From assembly GCF_000191045.1 (NCBI RefSeq), contig NC_015185.1, forward strand, positions 502,501 to 566,500: 64,000 nucleotides of DNA, given 5' to 3'. Position numbers and translations under genes: made by a program. How positions within the stretch are numbered: position 1 is the first letter of the stretch; every line of letters begins with the position of its first letter. Positions 6,753-58,810 of this stretch are shown piece by piece. The notes below the pieces were generated by a model, which saw only the letters and a list, made by a program, of their open reading frames with translations, did not search any database and had not been told where the DNA came from. The DNA is from Desulfurobacterium thermolithotrophum DSM 11699. Lineage in GTDB: Bacteria > Aquificota > Aquificia > Desulfurobacteriales > Desulfurobacteriaceae.

Positions 6753-7724
6753 TTAGTTGGAGAGTGTTTGAAAAATCATCCAGACAAAGAACAAAACTCC
6801 CATGTTAAAGAGGATAAACTTAGCTAAAACAAACAGTTGAGCTATATGAAAGCTCTTTGTTCTCTCGTAACTTCCAACATCCTGCTTAACTTCTCCAAAA
6901 ATACTCTCTATCAGTCCTCTAAACCTGTAAATTTCATCAGATTCTAAAAGCTCTTTGCATTTAAGCCTAATCTCAGATTTAATTCCCTTCCTTAATGTTT
7001 CTCTCACCTTTATGTAAGGCTTTAAGCCTGCTAACAGAACAAGCTCAATAAACTTAATGCTGTCATAAGCTTTGTCTCCTAAAAATGGCTTTCCTTTCAA
7101 AGCTCTCCATATAAATCCCCTTTCGTTTAACCACCTAACTATTTTCTCTCCAAGTTTCACTTCCGAAGCGTAACTCTCTCCAGGTAATGCAGTAAGAATG
7201 AACCTTTTTCCATCTTTTAGATGAACGCTTAATACAACAACTTTAACGTGGCTTTTTACCTCCTTTATCTCTTTGCCTCTTAGAATTTTCAATGGATAAA
7301 TCTCATTGTATTTGAAGCCAGTTCCATCTATTATCAGAAATCTTAGTTCTTTATGATACTTCCCTAAGAGTCTTCGAGAGACAAAGTTCAGAAAATCTAC
7401 AAGGAGAATGGAAGGTAGTTGCTTGAGTCGGTAATAATAGGTTGAAAAATCAGGAATATTCTCTCTTCCAAATATCTGAACTGCCAAATATTCAAGGTCT
7501 CTGAATGATAGGTTCCAGGCTACTTGGAGGAAAAGAAGGGTAAGAATTATCTCGTCAGGGTATTTCTTGGGTCTTCCTCTTTTGGTTTTAAAAGGATATA
7601 AATATACCAGTACAGCCTGTCCTCTCCGGTTCATGTATGTTTTTGATAGGTTGAGCACTTTGTGGAAATTTAGTCTTTTCGCTTTCATACCGGAGAGGAT
7701 AGGCTTTTTTCTTAATTTTGGCAA
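6753..7724 (-). CDS. DDE transposase of the 980-bp IS, copy B
   Basis: Near-identical to copy A, with Lys instead of Arg before PFLGDKAYDS. It starts at TTG 7724 and retains all catalytic residues (Asp, Asp, Glu and the Y-2-R-3-E-6-K signature). The frame again leaves the element and is closed by a TAA inside the duplicated target (tail QTLSN), so this copy is 323 residues long. It appears intact and potentially active. Confidence 0.92.
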   Translation of the reverse strand: MPKLRKKPILSGMKAKRLNFHKVLNLSKTYMNRRGQAVLVYLYPFKTKRGRPKKYPDEIILTLLFLQVAWNLSFRDLEYLAVQIFGRENIPDFSTYYYRLKQLPSILLVDFLNFVSRRLLGKYHKELRFLIIDGTGFKYNEIYPLKILRGKEIKEVKSHVKVVVLSVHLKDGKRFILTALPGESYASEVKLGEKIVRWLNERGFIWRALKGKPFLGDKAYDSIKFIELVLLAGLKPYIKVRETLRKGIKSEIRLKCKELLESDEIYRFRGLIESIFGEVKQDVGSYERTKSFHIAQLFVLAKFILFNMGVLFFVWMIFQTLSN

Positions 7725-7739
7725 TTTTCAAACACCCTC
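6760..7739 (-). mobile_element. 980-bp insertion sequence, copy B
   Basis: Same length and inverted repeats as copy A, in the opposite orientation. It is flanked by a perfect 10-bp target duplication, ACTTTAGTTG (6750-6759 and 7740-7749). The right end faces the cytochrome promoter, so transposase readthrough would run into that gene. Confidence 0.93.
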
Positions 7740-7887: not shown

Positions 7888-10193
7888 GTGAATCTAAGAA
7901 AGCAAAAAGATATCCGACTTATAAAAGGATTAGTTGCTATTATTTTTATAGCTTTCTCAGTAATTTTTTTTATTTTCGTTTTTAACCTAAAAATTTTTCA
8001 AAATGAGCTCGAAAGAACAATATATATTGCAGTTGTTAGTCAAAATGGAAAACGAATAAAGAACATAGTTGATTCTACATTTTCTACTTTTCGAGAATTG
8101 GAAAGAGAATCAAAGAAGAGATTAAAAAAAAAATTGAAGAAAATGTCTTAGAAGCGTATAATATTGCTAAATCCATTTATAGAAATTGTAAAAAAGAGAA
8201 TCATAACGATGAAAAGATAAAAAATTTAATAAAAGAAGCTTTGCGAAAGCATAATTCATTAAACGATCAGACATACATATTCATAGACTCTATAAAAGGC
8301 TCTATCGTTCTAAGTCCTTTACTTCCAACGATAGAAAGAAAAAACATTTGGAATGAAAACGATGAAAAAGAAATTTCTGTCTTCAAAAAGTTTTTAACGG
8401 TTGTTCTTTACTCACCAAAAAATCAAGGAACTGTCTGGACAAGTGAAAGGATTTATTTTGTAAAACTCTTTAAACCATACAATTGGATAGTAGGAGGTAC
8501 TTCTAGTCAAAACTTAAAAGAATATATAAAAGAGTGTTTTAAGAAACACATTAAGGAACATTCTAGTTTTAATTTATTTGTAGTTGATTTGAACGACAAC
8601 AAAAAAGACACTGTTTTAAGTACTAATTTTCTTCCTAGGTTAAAACAGGTAGATAAAGAAAAACTTAGAAAAGGAATTTTCTTCAATGATAAAGATAGAA
8701 TTTATTATGTTAGATTATTTCCACAATGGAATTTAGTAGTAGGAAGTTATGTTAAAAAAATTGATATAACCAAAGAAATAATAAGTTTAAAAGAAGAGCT
8801 CTTAAGAAAAATAAAAAAAGGAGTACTCTTTGCAATTTTAGTATTGTTAATAATTCTTACAATTTCTATGGTAGTAATTCTATTCCTATTGAAAAAATTG
8901 AACTTCTCTTTAGAAGAAGTGTTAAAGAAAAACAGATTACTACAAAGAGCACGAAGAACACTTATTATAAAAGTCTATAAAGATGAACTTACAAAGCTGT
9001 CTAATAGACGTAAGTTAGAAGAAGACATCAGAAAAATAGATCCTTCTAAAAAAGTATACTTTGCTCTAATTAATATAAGAAACTTTAAAGAACTTAACGA
9101 ACTATTTGGTTTAACGAAAGGAGATGAAATTTTAAGTTTGTTTGCTAAGAACTTAAAGAAAATTGTTAAGAAAGAATCGAAAGAAACTAATGTTTATAGG
9201 ATTAGAGGAGATAGGTTTGGCGTTTTAACTTGTAGTAAAAGTCTAAGTGATGAATTCTTTATAGGTTTTATAAAGAATCTTATAAAGAGCTTAGAAGAAG
9301 AAACTTTTGAAATAGAAGGATTAAAATTCAAGTTAGATGTTACAGCAGGAATATCAACTAACAAAGATAATTTAATAATAAAAGCAGAAATTGCAGAACA
9401 AGAAGCAAAGAAAAGAAATATGAATCTTTATGTATTTGATAAAGAACTTCAGAAAATATATCAAGATCTCCATAAGAACATTATCGTTGCTTCAAAATTA
9501 AAAGAAGCTATAAAAAATGATCGAATAGTTCCTTTCTTTCAGCCTATAGTTAATCTTAAAACTGGAGAAGTTGAAAAATATGAAGTTTTAATGAGAGTGT
9601 TTGATGAAGAAGGAAAGCTATTATCTCCAAATGAGTTTTTGCCAATAGCTAAGAAAACAGGTATATATCTAAAGTTATCAAAGAGATTAATGGAAAAGGC
9701 TTTGGAAATAGCTAAAAAGAGAAATATTAAAATTTCTATGAATATATCTTCAGAAGATTTAGCTTCTACTGAAATGAAGAATTGGCTCCTTGAAAGAGTT
9801 AAAAATTCAGGAATAGCTGCTAATATATGTTTTGAAATTGTTGAAACAGAAGCTTTTAACAGTCTTGAAATTTTAAAAGAGTTTTACTCTAAAATAAAAG
9901 AGCTCAATGCTGAACTATCAATTGATGACTTTGGAAGTGGATATTCTAACTTTGAATACATTTCCACCATAAAACCTGATTACATTAAAATAGATGGAAG
10001 TCTCATAAAAAAAATTCCTGATTCTAAGGAAGTGGAAATTCTTACTAAGCACATAGTTCTTTTCTGTAAAGAATTAAATATCAAAACTATAGCTGAATTT
10101 GTTTCCTCTGAAGAGATTTTAAGAAAAGTTGAAGAACTCGGTATAGATTATGGACAAGGATTTTATTTAGGAAAGCCTACTCAATTAGATTGA
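7888..10193 (+). pseudogene. Membrane Cache-GGDEF-EAL c-di-GMP protein, frameshifted at an A10 run
   Basis: Two frames together encode one protein. From GTG 7888 (AGGAG 5-6 bp before it) come a membrane segment (residues 12-33) and a helical stalk, until the frame is lost at A10 (8124-8133) and stops at 8151. The next frame continues without a stop (KIEENVLEAYNIAKSIY) into a Cache-type sensor, a second membrane segment (KGVLFAILVLLIILTISMVV), a degenerate GGDEF (RGDRF) and an intact EAL domain (EVLMR, IVETE, DDFGSGYS, KIDGSLIK, GQGFYLGKP). One extra A, or two fewer, restores the frame. If expressed, it would be a sensor phosphodiesterase. It overlaps the convergent downstream gene by 9 bp. 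Confidence 0.85.
8124..8133 (+). repeat. A10 homopolymer at the frameshift
   Basis: Ten consecutive A residues within the stalk helix. Runs of nine or more A are known sites of replication slippage (phase variation) and RNA-polymerase slippage in AT-rich bacteria. They are also frequent sites of sequencing error. Confidence 0.9.
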
Positions 10194-11090
10194 TTTAAGT
10201 AGTTGGAATGTAATTTTTCCACACCTTTCAAGTGCATGAAAGTTATATCCTCCCTCTAAGGTAAAGAGAATGGGAATAGAAAGTTCTTTGGCAGACAAAA
10301 GTATCTGTTCTAATATAAATCGAACTCCCTTATCAGTAACTTCAAGATTTGAGAGTGGATCGTCTTTATGAAGGTCATAACCAGCAGAAACGAGAATAAT
10401 TTCAGGCTTGAAGGTTTCTATGGATTTTCTATAGATTTCTCCATAGACTTCTTTGTATTTTGTATCACCAGAACCTTCTTGTATTGGAATGTTTAAAATG
10501 TGTTCATTATTTTCTTCTTTACTTCCTGTTCCTGGATAAAAAGGATACTGATGAGTAGAGAAATAAAAAACTTTTGGATTTATGTAAAAAGTATGCTGAG
10601 TACCGTTTCCATGGTGAGCATCAAAGTCAACAATAAATATTTTCTTTATTCCTAAAAGAAGAGCTCTTACAGCACCAATTGCAACATTGTTAAAAATACA
10701 AAATCCCATTGCTCTATCTCTTTCTGCGTGATGACCGGGAGGCCTAACTGCACAAAAAACCGTTTCGTATTTATTATTTAAAAGAAGTTCTACTCCTTTT
10801 TCTACTGCTCCAGCAGCAAAAACTGCTGAGTTGTAAGTATAAGAATTATAGTAAGTGTCTGGATCAAAAAAGCCGGGAGAGTACTCCCGACAAGATAGTC
10901 TTACACTATCGATGTAGTTTTTACTATGTACTGCTTCCAAAGACTCAAAACTTACAGGTTTTGGTTTTAAAATGGGAAAATCAAACTGAGGTAAGCTCTT
11001 TAAAAAGTATTTCAATCTCAAACTGTTTTCTGGATGTTTAGGTAAATCATGTTTTAAAAATACATCATCATAGATAATAGCAGTCTTCAT
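10185..11090 (-). CDS. Histone-deacetylase-family (AcuC/arginase-fold) amidohydrolase
   Basis: A 301-residue protein with the full zinc-deacetylase pattern: RPPGHHAERDRAMGFCIFNN (His-His charge relay), VDFDAHHGNGTQ (zinc Asp and His), SAGYDLHKDDPL (second zinc Asp) and LEGGYN near the end. Bacterial relatives act on acetylated small amines or on acetyl-CoA synthetase (AcuC); the substrate here is not evident. It starts 10-20 bp after rnr ends on the same strand, so it may be the last gene of an rnr transcript. Its 3' end overlaps the c-di-GMP gene tail to tail. Confidence 0.88.
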   Translation of the reverse strand: MKTAIIYDDVFLKHDLPKHPENSLRLKYFLKSLPQFDFPILKPKPVSFESLEAVHSKNYIDSVRLSCREYSPGFFDPDTYYNSYTYNSAVFAAGAVEKGVELLLNNKYETVFCAVRPPGHHAERDRAMGFCIFNNVAIGAVRALLLGIKKIFIVDFDAHHGNGTQHTFYINPKVFYFSTHQYPFYPGTGSKEENNEHILNIPIQEGSGDTKYKEVYGEIYRKSIETFKPEIILVSAGYDLHKDDPLSNLEVTDKGVRFILEQILLSAKELSIPILFTLEGGYNFHALERCGKITFQLLKSI

Positions 11091-14550: not shown

Positions 14551-15549
14551 TTATATCATCTCCAATCTCTCTTTTTTAGGATATGAGAGTGTTTGAAAAA
14601 TCATCCAGACAAAGAACAAAACTCCCATGTTAAAGAGGATAAACTTAGCTAAAACAAACAGTTGAGCTATATGAAAGCTCTTTGTTTTCTCGTAACTTCC
14701 AACATCCTGCTTAACTTCTCCAAAAATACTCTCTATCAGTCCTCTAAACCTGTAAATTTCATCAGATTCTAAAAGCTCTTTGCATTTAAGCCTAATCTCA
14801 GATTTAATTCCCTTCCTTAATGTTTCTCTCACCTTTATGTAAGGCTTTAAGCCTACTAACAGAACAAGCTCAATAAACTTAATGCTGTCATAAGCTTTGT
14901 CTCCTAAAAATGGCTTTCCTTTCAAAGCTCTCCATATAAATCCCCTTTCGTTTAACCACCTAACTATTTTCTCTCCAAGTTTCACTTCCGAAGCGTAACT
15001 CTCTCCAGGTAATGCAGTAAGAATGAACCTTTTTCCATCTTTTAGATGAACGCTTAATACAACAACTTTAACGTGGCTTTTTACCTCCTTTATCTCTTTG
15101 CCTCTTAGAATTTTCAATGGATAAATCTCATTGTATTTGAAGCCAGTTCCATCTATTATCAGAAATCTTAGTTCTTTATGATACTTCCCTAAGAGTCTTC
15201 GAGAGACAAAGTTCAGAAAATCTACAAGGAGAATGGAAGGTAGTTGCTTGAGTCGGTAATAATAGGTTGAAAAATCAGGAATATTCTCTCTTCCAAATAT
15301 CTGAACTGCCAAATATTCAAGGTCTCTGAATGATAGGTTCCAGGCTACTTGGAGGAAAAGAAGGGTAAGAATTATCTCGTCAGGGTATTTCTTGGGTCTT
15401 CCTCTTTTGGTTTTAAAAGGATATAAATATACCAGTACAGCCTGTCCTCTCCGGTTCATGTATGTTTTTGATAGGTTGAGTACTTTGTGGAAATTTAGTC
15501 TTTTCGCTTTCATACCGGAGAGGATAGGCTTTTTTCTTAATTTTGGCAA
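14551..15549 (-). CDS. DDE transposase of the 980-bp IS, copy C
   Basis: 332 residues from TTG 15549, with catalytic Asp, Asp, Glu all kept. It differs from the other copies by single conservative changes (LVGLKPYIK, SYEKTKSF). The frame passes out of the element and ends at 14551 in the edge of the IS110-type element, giving the tail YPKKERLEMI. Confidence 0.92.
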   Translation of the reverse strand: MPKLRKKPILSGMKAKRLNFHKVLNLSKTYMNRRGQAVLVYLYPFKTKRGRPKKYPDEIILTLLFLQVAWNLSFRDLEYLAVQIFGRENIPDFSTYYYRLKQLPSILLVDFLNFVSRRLLGKYHKELRFLIIDGTGFKYNEIYPLKILRGKEIKEVKSHVKVVVLSVHLKDGKRFILTALPGESYASEVKLGEKIVRWLNERGFIWRALKGKPFLGDKAYDSIKFIELVLLVGLKPYIKVRETLRKGIKSEIRLKCKELLESDEIYRFRGLIESIFGEVKQDVGSYEKTKSFHIAQLFVLAKFILFNMGVLFFVWMIFQTLSYPKKERLEMI

Positions 15550-20455: not shown

Positions 20456-21538
20456 ATGAGAATTCTTCAGGCAACAACCTCAAGAACTTGGAGCGGTGGA
20501 ACCGAACAGTGTCTTTTATTAGCAAAGTATATGAATGAATTAGGGCATGAAACAGGTATACTTACTATTAAAGGAAGTCTTCTTGATGAAAAAGCTAAAA
20601 TGCTTGGGATAAAGAGATTTTACTTTCCTGGAACAGAGAAAATCAGTATTAAAAATGCAAAAAAATTAGCCAAGCTTATTAAGCAATATGACGTTGTTAA
20701 TACTCATATACCAGCAGCTCATTGGTATATATGGTGTGCCTCTTTTTTTTGTAAAAAAAAACCTAAAATTGTTTATACTAGAAGGGTTAACTACGATGTA
20801 TCATTCCTATCATCTTTAACAAAATACAACATTAATACAGATGCAATAATTGCTATTTCTAATGAAGTAAAAAATAGATTAAAGAAAAGATTCTTTCTAA
20901 GAAAAAAGAAAATTTCTGTTATTCCTGATGGAATAGAGATAGATAAATTTAGTCCCCTAGTTAACTCAAAACTTCGAGAAGAAATAAAAATTGATAAAGA
21001 AACCATTGTAATTACTCATGTAGCAAATTTTCAGAAAGTGAAAGGACATAATATATTATTTGACGCCTTTAAAAGGATTTTAGAAAAAAGAAAGAAAAAA
21101 AAACTGTTACTACTTCTGGTTGGTAGAGATACGCAAAGCGAAAAAGCTCAAAATATGATAAAAGAAAAAAAAATAGAAAAGCATGTTATTTCTCTTGGAT
21201 TCCGAAAAGATATTCCTCAAATATTAAAAGAAACAGATCTTTTTGTTTTTCCTTCTATTAACGAAGGATTAGGGAGTTCTCTTCTTCAAGCTATGGCTAT
21301 GAAAAAAGTAGTGGTAGCTTCATATATTGGTGGAATAAGAAGTTATTTAAAACACATGGAAAATGGAATAACAGTTAAACCGGGAAACGTTGATTCTCTG
21401 TATCAGGGACTACTAAAAGGACTGGAAAACTTAAACAACGAAAACATGAAAGAGAACGCAAGGAAAACGGCGCAAGAATTTGATATAAAAAACGTTACAG
21501 AAAAAACTTTGCAACTTTATAAGGAACTCCTAAAGTAA
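20456..21538 (+). CDS. GT-B fold glycosyltransferase (family 4)
   Basis: 360 residues. The N-terminal acceptor loop is TTSRTWSGGTEQCLLLAKYM. The C-terminal donor domain contains HVANFQKVKGHNILFDAF and EX7E in SINEGLGSSLLQAMAM. Likely a lipopolysaccharide core or surface-glycan transferase; last intact gene of the cluster that starts at thiE. GGAG precedes the ATG. Its stop is immediately followed by a truncated nucleotide-sugar dehydrogenase, so the 3' side of the cluster has been rearranged. Confidence 0.87.
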   Translation: MRILQATTSRTWSGGTEQCLLLAKYMNELGHETGILTIKGSLLDEKAKMLGIKRFYFPGTEKISIKNAKKLAKLIKQYDVVNTHIPAAHWYIWCASFFCKKKPKIVYTRRVNYDVSFLSSLTKYNINTDAIIAISNEVKNRLKKRFFLRKKKISVIPDGIEIDKFSPLVNSKLREEIKIDKETIVITHVANFQKVKGHNILFDAFKRILEKRKKKKLLLLLVGRDTQSEKAQNMIKEKKIEKHVISLGFRKDIPQILKETDLFVFPSINEGLGSSLLQAMAMKKVVVASYIGGIRSYLKHMENGITVKPGNVDSLYQGLLKGLENLNNENMKENARKTAQEFDIKNVTEKTLQLYKELLK

Positions 21539-22645: not shown

Positions 22646-23770
22646 TGTTGAAGTTCAGATAGAAGGTGGACACCCTACAATAACCTTTGAATACCACAAG
22701 GAGGTGTCCACCGATGAAACAATTGAAAAGATTCAAAGGAACATCCCTCCATATATCAAGCACAAATACAGCATTCAAAGAAACCCTGAAAGAAGGAAGA
22801 AGAGTAAAAAAGAAACTTGACCTAACAAAAGACAGAAACGTTAAAAAAAGACTGAAATGGATAGAGTACTACCACAAAACAGGCAACGCCAGAAAAACAT
22901 GCAGATACTTTGGCATCAGTCCAACAACCTTCTACAAGTGGAAAAAAAGATACGACAAGTACGGGATAGAAGGACTCCAAGACAGAAACAAAAGACCTCA
23001 TAAAGTAAGACAACCCCAAACAGAACCTGAAATAGAACACATCATCGTCACAATAAGGGAAAAATTCCCAACCTGGAGCAAAGAAAAGATAGCAGCCTTC
23101 ATGGAAAGATACCTAAATGTAAAAATATCATCCTCTACAGTTTACAGGGTTCTCAAAAGACACGGACTAATAGAAAGAACCTGGAAACTAAAAAGTACCT
23201 ACAAGAGGAAGAAACAGAAAGGGAAAAAGAACCGCACCAGAAAAGGACTAAGAGCAGACAAACCAGGAACAATCCTCATGGACGTTAAATACCTCTACTG
23301 GTGCGGTAAAACCTTTTACCAGTTCACGGCAATAGACAAGTTCACCCGAATAGCATTTGCCAAGGTTTATTCTACAAAAAGCAGCAGGAGCGGAAGAAGG
23401 TTTTTTGAAGAACTTGAAAAATTTCTTCCCTTCAAGATAGAGAAAGTTCAAACGGATAACGGGAGCGAATTTTTAGGGGAGTTAGACGAATATCTTAAAA
23501 GAAAAGGGATAGAACACTACTTTAGTTATCCGAAATCTCCCAAGACTAATGCGCATGTAGAAAGGTTTATTCAAACGACAGAAAGTGAACTATGGATGAT
23601 AGAAGGAACAGAACCGACTGTTGATGAGATGAATAAAAAACTTTTTGAGTATTTAAAGATTTACAACTTTCTTAGACCCCATCACTCTTTAAATTACAAG
23701 ACTCCCGCTGAGAAGTTTGAGGACTATATTAGAAGTCATCAAGGTGTCCACCATGTATTGAACTCGAACA
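22646..23770 (+). mobile_element. IS481-type insertion sequence, copy D (1125 bp)
   Basis: The ends start TGTTGAAG and finish CTCGAACA, the TGT...ACA termini of IS481. Imperfect inverted repeats share GAGTTCA/AAGTTCA and the inner GGTGGACACC. The same 1125-bp unit occurs inverted at 57686-58810. No matching direct repeat flanks this copy. It begins 10 bp after the TrmB stop and ends 5 bp before the -35 of tRNA-Asn. Confidence 0.85.
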
Positions 23771-23829
23771 ACCCCTTGACAAGAGAAGGGCAGTTTCCTA
23801 TATTATTCACCAGCAAGGTTCCCCGGTAG
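22714..23829 (+). CDS. IS481-type DDE transposase, copy D
   Basis: 371 residues from ATG 22714 (AGGAGGTG 7 bp upstream; longer frame rejected). The N-terminal helix-turn-helix reads TGNARKTCRYFGISPTTFYKWKKRY, followed by a second DNA-binding segment (EKIAAFMERY). The rve integrase core has Asp in ILMDVKYLYW, Asp in VQTDNGSEF and Glu in NAHVERFIQTTESEL. The reading frame has no stop in the element and runs 59 bp past its end, overlapping the start of tRNA-Asn. Confidence 0.9.
   Translation: MKQLKRFKGTSLHISSTNTAFKETLKEGRRVKKKLDLTKDRNVKKRLKWIEYYHKTGNARKTCRYFGISPTTFYKWKKRYDKYGIEGLQDRNKRPHKVRQPQTEPEIEHIIVTIREKFPTWSKEKIAAFMERYLNVKISSSTVYRVLKRHGLIERTWKLKSTYKRKKQKGKKNRTRKGLRADKPGTILMDVKYLYWCGKTFYQFTAIDKFTRIAFAKVYSTKSSRSGRRFFEELEKFLPFKIEKVQTDNGSEFLGELDEYLKRKGIEHYFSYPKSPKTNAHVERFIQTTESELWMIEGTEPTVDEMNKKLFEYLKIYNFLRPHHSLNYKTPAEKFEDYIRSHQGVHHVLNSNNPLTREGQFPILFTSKVPR
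23776..23804 (+). promoter_or_regulatory. Promoter of tRNA-Asn
   Basis: A near-consensus promoter: TTGACA (23776-23781), 17-bp spacer, TATATT (23799-23804). It sits between the IS481 end (23770) and the tRNA start (23820). Confidence 0.8.
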
Positions 23830-25664: not shown

Positions 25665-26227
25665 TATTGATTTAATCCGTATTTATTTAACTTCCTATAT
25701 AGATTTGAAATATCAATTTCCATAAAGGTAGCTGCTTTTTTTAAATCGCCATTAAATCGTTTAAGCACTTGTTTGATATAAGTCTTTTCAAATTCCTCTT
25801 TTGCTTTTTTGAGAGGAAGATTTGAAAGGTAATCAACAGCTCCACCTATAGAATTTTCTGAAGATAAGTATTTCTTTGCATCTTCAATAACTTCAATAAG
25901 TTTATCGTATTTAATAGGTTTTTCTAAAAAGTCAAAAGCTCCCAATTTCATAGCCTTTACAGAAGTTTCAACCGTTCCATGACCCGAAATAATCACTACT
26001 GCCAAACTTTGAGTGATTCCTCTTTCATGGAGCTCTTTTAAGATTTCCATACCTGAAATTCCAGGAAGAAAAAGATCAAGAATTAGTATATCTGGTTTAA
26101 GTTTCTCAATAGCACCTATGACTTTAGAACCTGCCTCTTCTATAAAGATTTCAAAGCCTTCATCTTCAAGAATCTCTTTTACCGTTTCTCTTATAGTTCT
26201 TTCATCGTCAACTATTAGAACCTTCAT
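25664..26227 (-). CDS. Response regulator: receiver plus Fis-type HTH, no AAA+ domain
   Basis: 187 residues. The receiver domain (1-120) shows DDERT, the phospho-acceptor Asp in DILILDLFLPG, SGHG and the conserved Lys in FLEKP. The C-terminal part (from about 140: LPLKKAKEEFEKTYIKQVL, then GDLKKAATFMEIDISNLYRKL) is a Fis-like DNA-binding domain as in NtrX. The sigma-54-contacting AAA+ module that normally lies between them is absent, as in RegA/PrrA-type regulators. No histidine kinase lies nearby. The start overlaps the dnaX 3' end by 20 bp. Confidence 0.85.
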   Translation of the reverse strand: MKVLIVDDERTIRETVKEILEDEGFEIFIEEAGSKVIGAIEKLKPDILILDLFLPGISGMEILKELHERGITQSLAVVIISGHGTVETSVKAMKLGAFDFLEKPIKYDKLIEVIEDAKKYLSSENSIGGAVDYLSNLPLKKAKEEFEKTYIKQVLKRFNGDLKKAATFMEIDISNLYRKLNKYGLNQ

Positions 26228-27599
26228 CTATCACCTTCGGATAACCTGGAAGGAGTTTTGCATTAAAAGTTTTTAAAAGCTTGTCTATTTTTTTCTCAGA
26301 TTCCTGGGAAATTTTAACTTCTTTTTTTCCGTTTCCGTTAGATATCTCCAGAATCTTCACTCTTTTTCCAAATCTTTTTTCAAGTTCTCCTATTCTATCT
26401 TTGAGAAGTTCGTAAGCAGTTCTATTTTTTGGAATGATCTCTACAAATTCCTTTTTATCGTTTACTTCCTTTATGTATATATCCTCTAAACTATTAATTT
26501 CTTCTTCAGTGTTTTCTGTTTTTTTTTCAAGAACTGAAAGTTCTAATTTTCCCGATAATAGCTCACTTATTCTCTTTAAGTCTTTAAAGTAAGACAGTTT
26601 AAAAAGGTAAAAGAAAAGAGCTGTATACGGGTAAGGATGAGTAGCTACAACTTTATGAGCATCAGAAAGAATTTTGAAAGCTGCAAGGAGTTCTTCTTCA
26701 GAGAAATTTTTACCTTCGATAAACTCTCTTTCAACTTTTTCCAAAAGTTGCTTAACAATAAAAAGCGGATTGTATCCTTGACTCTCTAGCCTTTTTAACT
26801 TTTCCCTTAGTTCCCGTTTTTTTCCTGAAAAAGATAAACTAAGAATTTCAAAAATTTCCTTACCCGTAAGAACTCCTAAGAATTCAGATATGTAAGATGT
26901 TTTAACCAATCCATTACCTAAAGCTATAGCTTGGTCTAGAAGGCTTTCAGCATCTCTCATACATCCTTCTGAAGCTGTGGCTATAAGATAAAGAGCCTCT
27001 TCTTCATAACTTACATCTTCTTTTTCACATATTCTTTTGAGAGTTTCAACCATTAAATCCTTAGGAATTCTTCTAAAAACAAACTTCTGACATCTAGAAA
27101 GTATAGTTGGAGGTATTTTGTCTATCTCTGTAGTCGCAAGAATAAAAACAACATGCTCAGGGGGTTCTTCCAAGGTTTTGAGAAGAGCGTTAAAAGCCTC
27201 TTTTGTAAGCATATGGAATTCGTCAATAATATAAACCTTTTTCTTTCCTTTTACTGGAGCATAATTAACAGACTCTCTTAGTTCTCTTATCTGATCAATT
27301 CCTCTGTTTGTAGCAGCATCAATCTCTATAACATCTGGAAAAGAACCTTTTGAAATTGCTTGACAGTTAGAGCATTCGTTACAAGGTTCTCCGTCTATTA
27401 AACTCTCGCAATTAAGGGCTTTTGCAACAATTCTTGCTGTTGTCGTTTTTCCTACACCCCTTGGGCCGGCAAATACGTAAGCGTGAGCAAACCTTCCTGT
27501 TTTTATGGCGTTTTTCAGAGTGTTAGTAATATACTCTTGTCCAGTTACTTCTGAAAACTTGGATGGTCTATACTTTCTAGGTATTGCAACGTAAGCCAT
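26208..27599 (-). CDS. dnaX: DNA polymerase III subunit gamma/tau
   Basis: 463 residues from ATG 27599 (GGAGAAAA upstream). The clamp-loader AAA+ domain has Walker A AGPRGVGKTTTARIVAKAL, a zinc module (CESL, CNECSNCQ), Walker B IDEFHMLTKEAFNALLKTLE and SRC in ILSRCQKF. Domain III follows, then a short divergent tail (NGNGKKEVKISQESEKKIDK). The length is between E. coli gamma (431) and tau (643), so a separate tau may not exist here. It loads the sliding clamp at replication. Confidence 0.93.
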   Translation of the reverse strand: MAYVAIPRKYRPSKFSEVTGQEYITNTLKNAIKTGRFAHAYVFAGPRGVGKTTTARIVAKALNCESLIDGEPCNECSNCQAISKGSFPDVIEIDAATNRGIDQIRELRESVNYAPVKGKKKVYIIDEFHMLTKEAFNALLKTLEEPPEHVVFILATTEIDKIPPTILSRCQKFVFRRIPKDLMVETLKRICEKEDVSYEEEALYLIATASEGCMRDAESLLDQAIALGNGLVKTSYISEFLGVLTGKEIFEILSLSFSGKKRELREKLKRLESQGYNPLFIVKQLLEKVEREFIEGKNFSEEELLAAFKILSDAHKVVATHPYPYTALFFYLFKLSYFKDLKRISELLSGKLELSVLEKKTENTEEEINSLEDIYIKEVNDKKEFVEIIPKNRTAYELLKDRIGELEKRFGKRVKILEISNGNGKKEVKISQESEKKIDKLLKTFNAKLLPGYPKVIDEGSNS

Positions 27600-27737
27600 T
27601 TTTCTCCAAATTAGCAAATAAACTTTACCTTTTAAGCAATGCTATTGTATCATAAGGCAACAGTTTCTTTTTTTGTTCTTTTAAAAAGTCTTAAATTTTT
27701 TGTAAAATTCCCTTTACCACTTTTGGGGGTGTACATA

Positions 27738-57581: not shown

Positions 57582-58742
57582 TTAGGAAGAATTTTGCGCT
57601 AATCCTCTCCTTTTCAAAGGGGAGATACAGCGCACGCCGTAAGCCGTTGTTTGATATAATTTAAGCAAGGCGATAACCAAGCCTATGTTCGAGTTCAATA
57701 CATGGTGGACACCTTGATGGTTTTTAATATATTCCTCAAACTTCTCAGCGGGAGTCTTGTAATTTAAAGAGTGATGGGGTCTAAGAAAGTTGTAAATCTT
57801 TAAATACTCAAAAAGTTTTTTATTCATCTCATCAACAGTCGGTTCTGTTCCTTCTATCATCCATAGTTCACTTTCTGTCGTTTGAATAAACCTTTCTACA
57901 TGCGCATTAGTCTTGGGAGATTTCGGATAACTAAAGTAGTGTTCTATCCCTTTTCTTTTAAGATATTCGTCTAACTCCCCTAAAAATTCGCTCCCGTTAT
58001 CCGTTTGAACTTTCTCTATCTTGAAGGGAAGAAATTTTTCAAGTTCTTCAAAAAACCTTCTTCCGCTCCTGCTGCTTTTTGTAGAATAAACCTTGGCAAA
58101 TGCTATTCGGGTGAACTTGTCTATTGCCGTGAACTGGTAAAAGGTTTTACCGCACCAGTAGAGGTATTTAACGTCCATGAGGATTGTTCCTGGTTTGTCT
58201 GCTCTTAGTCCTTTTCTGGTGCGGTTCTTTTTCCCTTTCTGTTTCTTCCTCTTGTAGGTACTTTTTAGTTTCCAGGTTCTTTCTATTAGTCCGTGTCTTT
58301 TGAGAACCCTGTAAACTGTAGAGGATGATATTTTTACATTTAGGTATCTTTCCATGAAGGCTGCTATCTTTTCTTTGCTCCAGGTTGGGAATTTTTCCCT
58401 TATTGTGACGATGATGTGTTCTATTTCAGGTTCTGTTTGTGGTTGTCTTACTTTATGAGGTCTTTTGTTTCTGTCTTGGAGTCCTTCTATCCCGTACTTG
58501 TCGTATCTTTTTTTCCACTTGTAGAAGGTTGTTGGACTGATGCCAAAGTATCTGCATGTTTTTCTGGCGTTGCCTGTTTTGTGGTAGTACTCTATCCATT
58601 TGAGTCTCCTTTTAACATTTCTGTCTTTTGTTAGGTCAAGCTTCTTTTTTACTCTTCTTCCTTTTTTCAGGGTTTCTTTGAACGCCGTATTTGTGCTGGA
58701 TATATGGAGGGATGTTCCTTTGAATCTTTTCAATTGTTTCAT
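57582..58742 (-). CDS. IS481-type DDE transposase, copy E
   Basis: 386 residues from ATG 58742 (AGGAGGTG upstream). Same HTH and rve catalytic residues as copy D (MDVKYLYW, QTDNGSEF, NAHVERFIQTTE). Small differences such as KKGRRV and FEEYIKNHQG. The frame again lacks a stop in the element and adds about 33 host-encoded residues ending LAQNSS. Confidence 0.9.
   Translation of the reverse strand: MKQLKRFKGTSLHISSTNTAFKETLKKGRRVKKKLDLTKDRNVKRRLKWIEYYHKTGNARKTCRYFGISPTTFYKWKKRYDKYGIEGLQDRNKRPHKVRQPQTEPEIEHIIVTIREKFPTWSKEKIAAFMERYLNVKISSSTVYRVLKRHGLIERTWKLKSTYKRKKQKGKKNRTRKGLRADKPGTILMDVKYLYWCGKTFYQFTAIDKFTRIAFAKVYSTKSSRSGRRFFEELEKFLPFKIEKVQTDNGSEFLGELDEYLKRKGIEHYFSYPKSPKTNAHVERFIQTTESELWMIEGTEPTVDEMNKKLFEYLKIYNFLRPHHSLNYKTPAEKFEEYIKNHQGVHHVLNSNIGLVIALLKLYQTTAYGVRCISPLKRRGLAQNSS
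57596..57633. repeat. Compact imperfect hairpin upstream of the FAD oxidase gene
   Basis: Outer arms GCGCT/AGCGC (57596-57600, 57629-57633) enclose CTCTCCTTT/AAAGGGGAG (57605-57613, 57616-57624, one G-U pair). The surrounding 57590-57685 is GC-richer than its neighbours and encodes no gene. It might be part of a decayed element or a regulatory structure in the FAD oxidase leader. Confidence 0.5.
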
Positions 58743-58810
58743 CGGTGGACACCTCCTTGTGGTATTCAAAGGTTATTGTAGGGTGTCCACCTTCTATCTG
58801 AACTTCAACA
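57686..58810 (-). mobile_element. IS481-type insertion sequence, copy E (1125 bp)
   Basis: Same 1125-bp unit as copy D but inverted: plus strand starts TGTTCGAGTTC and ends CTTCAACA. A few substitutions separate the copies. No direct repeat flanks it. It starts 8-10 bp after the hemB stop. With copy D it forms a 34-kb-spaced inverted pair able to recombine. Confidence 0.85.

Follow-up and report, generated by a model that had tools for sequence, protein, structure and literature searches.

A frame-broken phosphodiesterase gene beside an A10 run in Desulfurobacterium thermolithotrophum: a probably decaying sensor gene whose lesion appears lineage-specific and may be leaky

The window analyzed here, a 64,000-nt stretch of the D. 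thermolithotrophum DSM 11699 genome, carries a sensor gene in two pieces, flanked upstream by an insertion sequence (IS) copy whose edge lies 149 bp from ORF1 and downstream by a convergent histone-deacetylase-like gene that is kept as a neighbor in relatives and extends 9 nt into the end of the sensor gene (Table 1). ORF1 is homologous to its orthologs in its own reading up to approximately position 8104, and reading through from ORF1 into the -1 frame yields Pfam matches to dCache_2 (6e-25), GGDEF (5e-19), and EAL (2e-65). Cache, GGDEF, and EAL therefore occur in a single chain, but only across the frame break. The family-invariant residues of the EAL domain are kept (E484, N537, E568/E571, D598-D599, K619, E655, and Q675, in P0001 numbering). 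An earlier sequence-only reading had described an A10 run at this place, two halves that together make a complete Cache-GGDEF-EAL protein, and an intact EAL site, all of which were borne out. The GGDEF motif reads RGDRF, with RGDKF as the family consensus, and, to judge from these motifs, the diguanylate cyclase site is degenerate throughout the family, so that the predicted sensor protein would be a phosphodiesterase at most. We predict that the product would be a membrane-bound dCache/degenerate-GGDEF/EAL c-di-GMP phosphodiesterase. A scan for consensus promoters and terminators gave matches no commoner than chance.

Table 1. Features of the sensor locus (window positions) and of dnaX in the sister family (positions in stretches L135 and L137)
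Feature	Position	Strand	Description
IS copy	6760..7739	-	DDE_Tnp_1 transposase, 980 bp
ORF1	7888..8151	+	87 aa; GTG start, TAG at 8149-8151; first transmembrane segment and beginning of the Cache region
Both frames open	8073..8148	+	one-base frame change somewhere inside; best fit 8104-8110, A10 also possible
A10 run	8124..8133	+	
Downstream (-1) frame	8133..10193	+	open back to 8073 and on to the stop ending at 10193; remaining dCache, second transmembrane segment, degenerate GGDEF (RGDRF), EAL with family-invariant residues
In-frame loss of ~10 residues	8425..8445	+	in the first Cache module, with loss of conserved Y/Y/P columns
Histone-deacetylase-like gene	10185..11090	-	convergent
Sister-family dnaX, L135	207-1651		A9 at 1337
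Sister-family dnaX, L137	1468-2903		A9 at 2589

The frame break is real, but the sequence-only reading placed it at the A10 run, and since neither frame is closed anywhere in 8073-8148, the change may lie elsewhere in this interval. Scoring the switch point with a simple profile was contradictory, close and distant orthologs giving opposite answers and the run being weighted more when distant ones dominated, and we therefore used a tree-based site likelihood (15 sequences, branch lengths fixed). This placed the highest likelihood at 8104-8110, with A10 approximately 3.9 log units (about 50-fold) lower and receiving approximately 2% under a flat prior. Codon usage over 8073-8123 did not discriminate between the two frames. 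A/T runs of at least 9, however, are present in only 0.07% of random 76-nt ORF windows and 0.7% of Lys-rich windows, which makes a chance co-occurrence of A10 and frame break unlikely, and the two are probably related. The likelihood favoring 8104-8110 thus stands against a strong mutational prior for A10. As a matter of judgement and not of computation, we think it fairly likely that the run itself lost the base, although the likelihood for a change upstream weakens this step.

To place the break in its evolutionary context, we compared the gene across 24 genomes of the order. Orthologs were found in 14 other genomes at 43-57% identity; 13 of the 14 are open in one frame, and the ortholog in genome G015 is frameshifted at a different place, with no long run at the site (stretch L013, upstream of 1543). 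None of the 14 contains an A/T run of at least 8 within the gene. In G010, which the dnaX tree places nearest, a different gene lies beside the conserved histone-deacetylase-like neighbor, and genus g3 gave no close match, nor did the gene occur beside that neighbor in the two g3 genomes read. A contig scan added no close orthologs except two Desulfurobacteriaceae MAGs, which appear to correspond to genomes already searched. A genome of D. thermolithotrophum strain HR11 also exists (PMC12724263). On these comparisons the sensor gene appears to be dispensable, and its A10 private to one species. The run, then, is not kept as in a phase-variable gene, nor is there a conserved frame break with a conserved slippery run, as in programmed transcriptional slippage. 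Comparison of run length, which the sequence-only reading had proposed for related strains, thus tells, across these orthologs, against a phase-variation switch. Other inactivating mutations in relatives, which that reading had named as a refutation, were represented by the G015 frameshift alongside 13 intact genes.

That reading had also reported no other damage over 2.3 kb and had argued from this for a recent or reversible loss. Neither the report nor the argument holds, because the Cache region is eroded. Approximately 10 residues, including conserved Tyr and Pro columns, are gone in frame around 8430-8440, and changes affect 16 of the 52 conserved columns of the Cache region, compared with 0-8 in orthologs. 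By contrast, EAL is changed at 6 of 90 conserved columns, inside the ortholog range. The G000/G009 branch-length ratio is 1.63 for Cache, 1.69 for GGDEF, and 1.00 for EAL, and dnaX branch lengths in the two lineages are about equal. The gene thus combines an inactivating change absent from its relatives with added erosion, in the pattern of a pseudogene, but the normal EAL counts against an old one: with the sensing part eroded and EAL not, either the break must be recent or some enzyme must still be made and used. An alternative is that the downstream half works as a shorter protein, having shed Cache and being made as TM-GGDEF-EAL from an internal start, as the normal EAL constraint beside an eroded Cache would suggest. 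We consider this improbable, as the first methionine codon of the downstream frame falls within the second transmembrane segment, the earliest start codon listed, TTG at 8241, falls in the middle of Cache, no clear ribosome-binding site is visible by eye, and GGDEF is evolving fast as well.

We next asked how unusual such a run is in this genome, a single contig of 1,541,968 bp. With 10 kb of the genome read as N, A10 is the longest homopolymer class, with three A10 runs and none of 11 or more. Of the other two, one lies within an intact gene for a 1025-aa multihaem cytochrome and one outside ORFs of at least 80 aa. Relative to synonymous shuffles, coding runs are scarce: 9 A9 runs were observed versus 120 expected, 1 A10 versus 50, and none of A11 or longer versus 35. 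This deficit is a sign that long runs are costly here, and, given the avoidance of runs of at least 9 in intact genes, the A10 of the sensor gene fits relaxed selection. Separately, a group-1 glycosyltransferase gene (window 20456-21538) holds three of the nine counted coding A9 runs, at 20753, 21095, and 21165, and is possibly a phase-variable surface-sugar gene or a recent import.

Two A/T runs of at least 9 were found at real frame breaks, the sensor A10 and the T9 of a carbonic anhydrase gene. The latter emerged from a half-genome frameshift survey, covering approximately 880 kb of G020, which returned 12 frameshift-like cases, 3 of them real: a pyrimidine-nucleoside phosphorylase at A7 (genome 80169), a glycosyltransferase at T7 (1279124), and the carbonic anhydrase at T9 (1491559), all named from sequence reading. 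The survey missed the sensor gene because its N terminus is too diverged. The other nine cases were rejected as antisense or out-of-frame ORFs, tRNA, or rRNA, one of them (518193-518810) solely by its position over tRNA-Val. The carbonic anhydrase gene appears broken in G009 also. The three other real lesions thus fall at A/T runs of 7-9, as slippage would predict.

The genome also carries many IS copies. The DDE_Tnp_1 IS has 20 genome copies at approximately 98-100% identity, and a second, IS481-like element (the family name being a sequence reading) has 24 near-identical copies; within the window, near-identical copies of two IS families lie at 1541-2542, 6753-7724, and 14551-15549, and at 22687-23829 and 57582-58769. 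An IS481-like copy (930492-931640) interrupts a GGDEF-EAL gene at genome 929226-932202, and at 765813-766007 the C-terminal remnant of an EAL gene adjoins IS copies. Of six EAL loci found in the genome, three are thus disrupted, the sensor gene included.

These lesions also bear on whether the genome in fact has an unbroken gene, with the run or a nearby base simply miscounted in the 2011 assembly, which combined 454 and Illumina reads, was polished, and lists 34 pseudogenes (PMC3368423). All 4 of 4 frameshifts counted as genuine fall at A/T runs of 7-10, as 454 errors would, and the stated error rate of less than 1 in 100,000 still permits approximately 15 errors genome-wide (PMC3368423). Nevertheless, the assembly was polished with 282x Illumina coverage (PMC3368423), neither platform has difficulty with A7 or T7 runs, and miscalled bases would account neither for the erosion of Cache nor for the further EAL genes that are broken. 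We therefore hold an assembly error to be unlikely, though somewhat less so than the shorter protein considered above.

A by-product of this analysis, which we find more interesting than the sensor lesion itself, is the pattern at dnaX. In the window, dnaX (26208-27617, minus strand) carries an A9 run at 26519-26527, and A9 is found in 18 of 19 Desulfurobacteriaceae, with A8 in the remaining one, with stops soon downstream in both other frames. In Thermus, transcriptional slippage at an A9 in dnaX is exploited for two products, and the Desulfurobacteriaceae gene shares this anatomy of A9 with near stops (PMC1088944, PMC5009743), which makes it a candidate for making tau and gamma by slippage in the Thermus manner. 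A literature search found no paper naming dnaX slippage in Desulfurobacterium. The two sister-family genomes each have dnaX as a pair of overlapping ORFs joined at A9 (Table 1), so that tau would need slippage there; this resembles a two-ORF dnaX type that includes Chlorobi (PMC3711429). Slippage at A9 is therefore likely in this order, as far as the sequences indicate. Given an A9 that is conserved and that sits at a two-ORF junction, it is plausible, by analogy with dnaX, that RNA-polymerase slippage would give some full-length sensor protein as a by-product. A stronger form of this idea is that A10 is crossed efficiently, giving a reduced and noisy supply of an EAL phosphodiesterase that has lost its sensor input. 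The enzyme would then be throttled by slippage through accident, in a species whose dnaX probably already relies on slippage at A9. We regard it as improbable, on a par with the assembly error.

The same dnaX runs bear on whether the sensor gene is an evolved slippage device, in which phase variation of the run, or programmed slippage by RNA polymerase or ribosome, would control how much full-length phosphodiesterase is made. As a site for slippage A10 is suitable, the -1 frame could be reached through an extra mRNA A or a -1 shift on A AAA AAA, tRNA-Lys UUU is the only tRNA-Lys found, and phase-variable phosphodiesterases are known elsewhere, by promoter inversion (PMC11868660). Yet neither run nor frame break is kept in any ortholog, the gene is missing from the locus in the nearest relative, the sensing domain is eroded, and the conserved device in these same genomes, dnaX, looks quite different. 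We consider such a device improbable, no more likely than the shorter protein. Of the sequence-only reading's pair of a slippage switch or a lesion, it is the lesion that the unconserved break, the G015 frameshift, the gene's absence at the G010 locus, the Cache erosion, and the other broken EAL genes favor, and the switch that the lack of any run of at least 8 in orthologs and of a conserved break speaks against.

Taken together, we think it likely that the sensor gene is a dispensable phosphodiesterase gene in decay, and that its lesion is specific to this lineage, possibly leaky, probably caused by slippage, and not an evolved switch. In this scenario, an ancestral gene would have encoded a membrane-bound dCache/degenerate-GGDEF/EAL c-di-GMP phosphodiesterase, and a one-base change, net -1 frame, would have broken it in this lineage, most likely through replication slippage at or just upstream of A10. 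The break would mark a stage in the decay of a signaling gene that the cell can do without, in a genome with many recent IS copies, with the sensing half eroding too, though the order of these events is reconstructed. A minority of transcripts or ribosomes may cross A10 correctly and yield some full-length protein as a side effect.

Single-indel homopolymer frameshifts in Blochmannia and Buchnera (PMC3017870) resemble this case in having the break at or near poly-A, a catalytic part otherwise in frame, and a possible partial rescue by transcriptional slippage, but here the host is a free-living vent thermophile that strongly avoids long runs, the sensor domain is eroded too, and the shift may lie outside the run. 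The dnaX A9 of Thermus thermophilus (PMC1088944, PMC5009743) is a slippery run of the same kind as the sensor A10 and yields two products, whereas the A10 is private to one species; its true parallel is the family's own dnaX. PdcB/PdcC of Clostridioides difficile (PMC11868660) likewise involve a phosphodiesterase whose expression may be on or off, but they switch by promoter inversion, and the sensor gene shows no evidence of reversible switching. On its own, the sensor gene illustrates how a gene decays next to a slippery run. The strong avoidance of coding A/T runs of at least 9, together with the dnaX exception, offers a natural test of frameshift leakiness in a thermophile, and if such frameshifts prove leaky, genes of this type now called 'pseudogenes' would in many cases have to be read anew.
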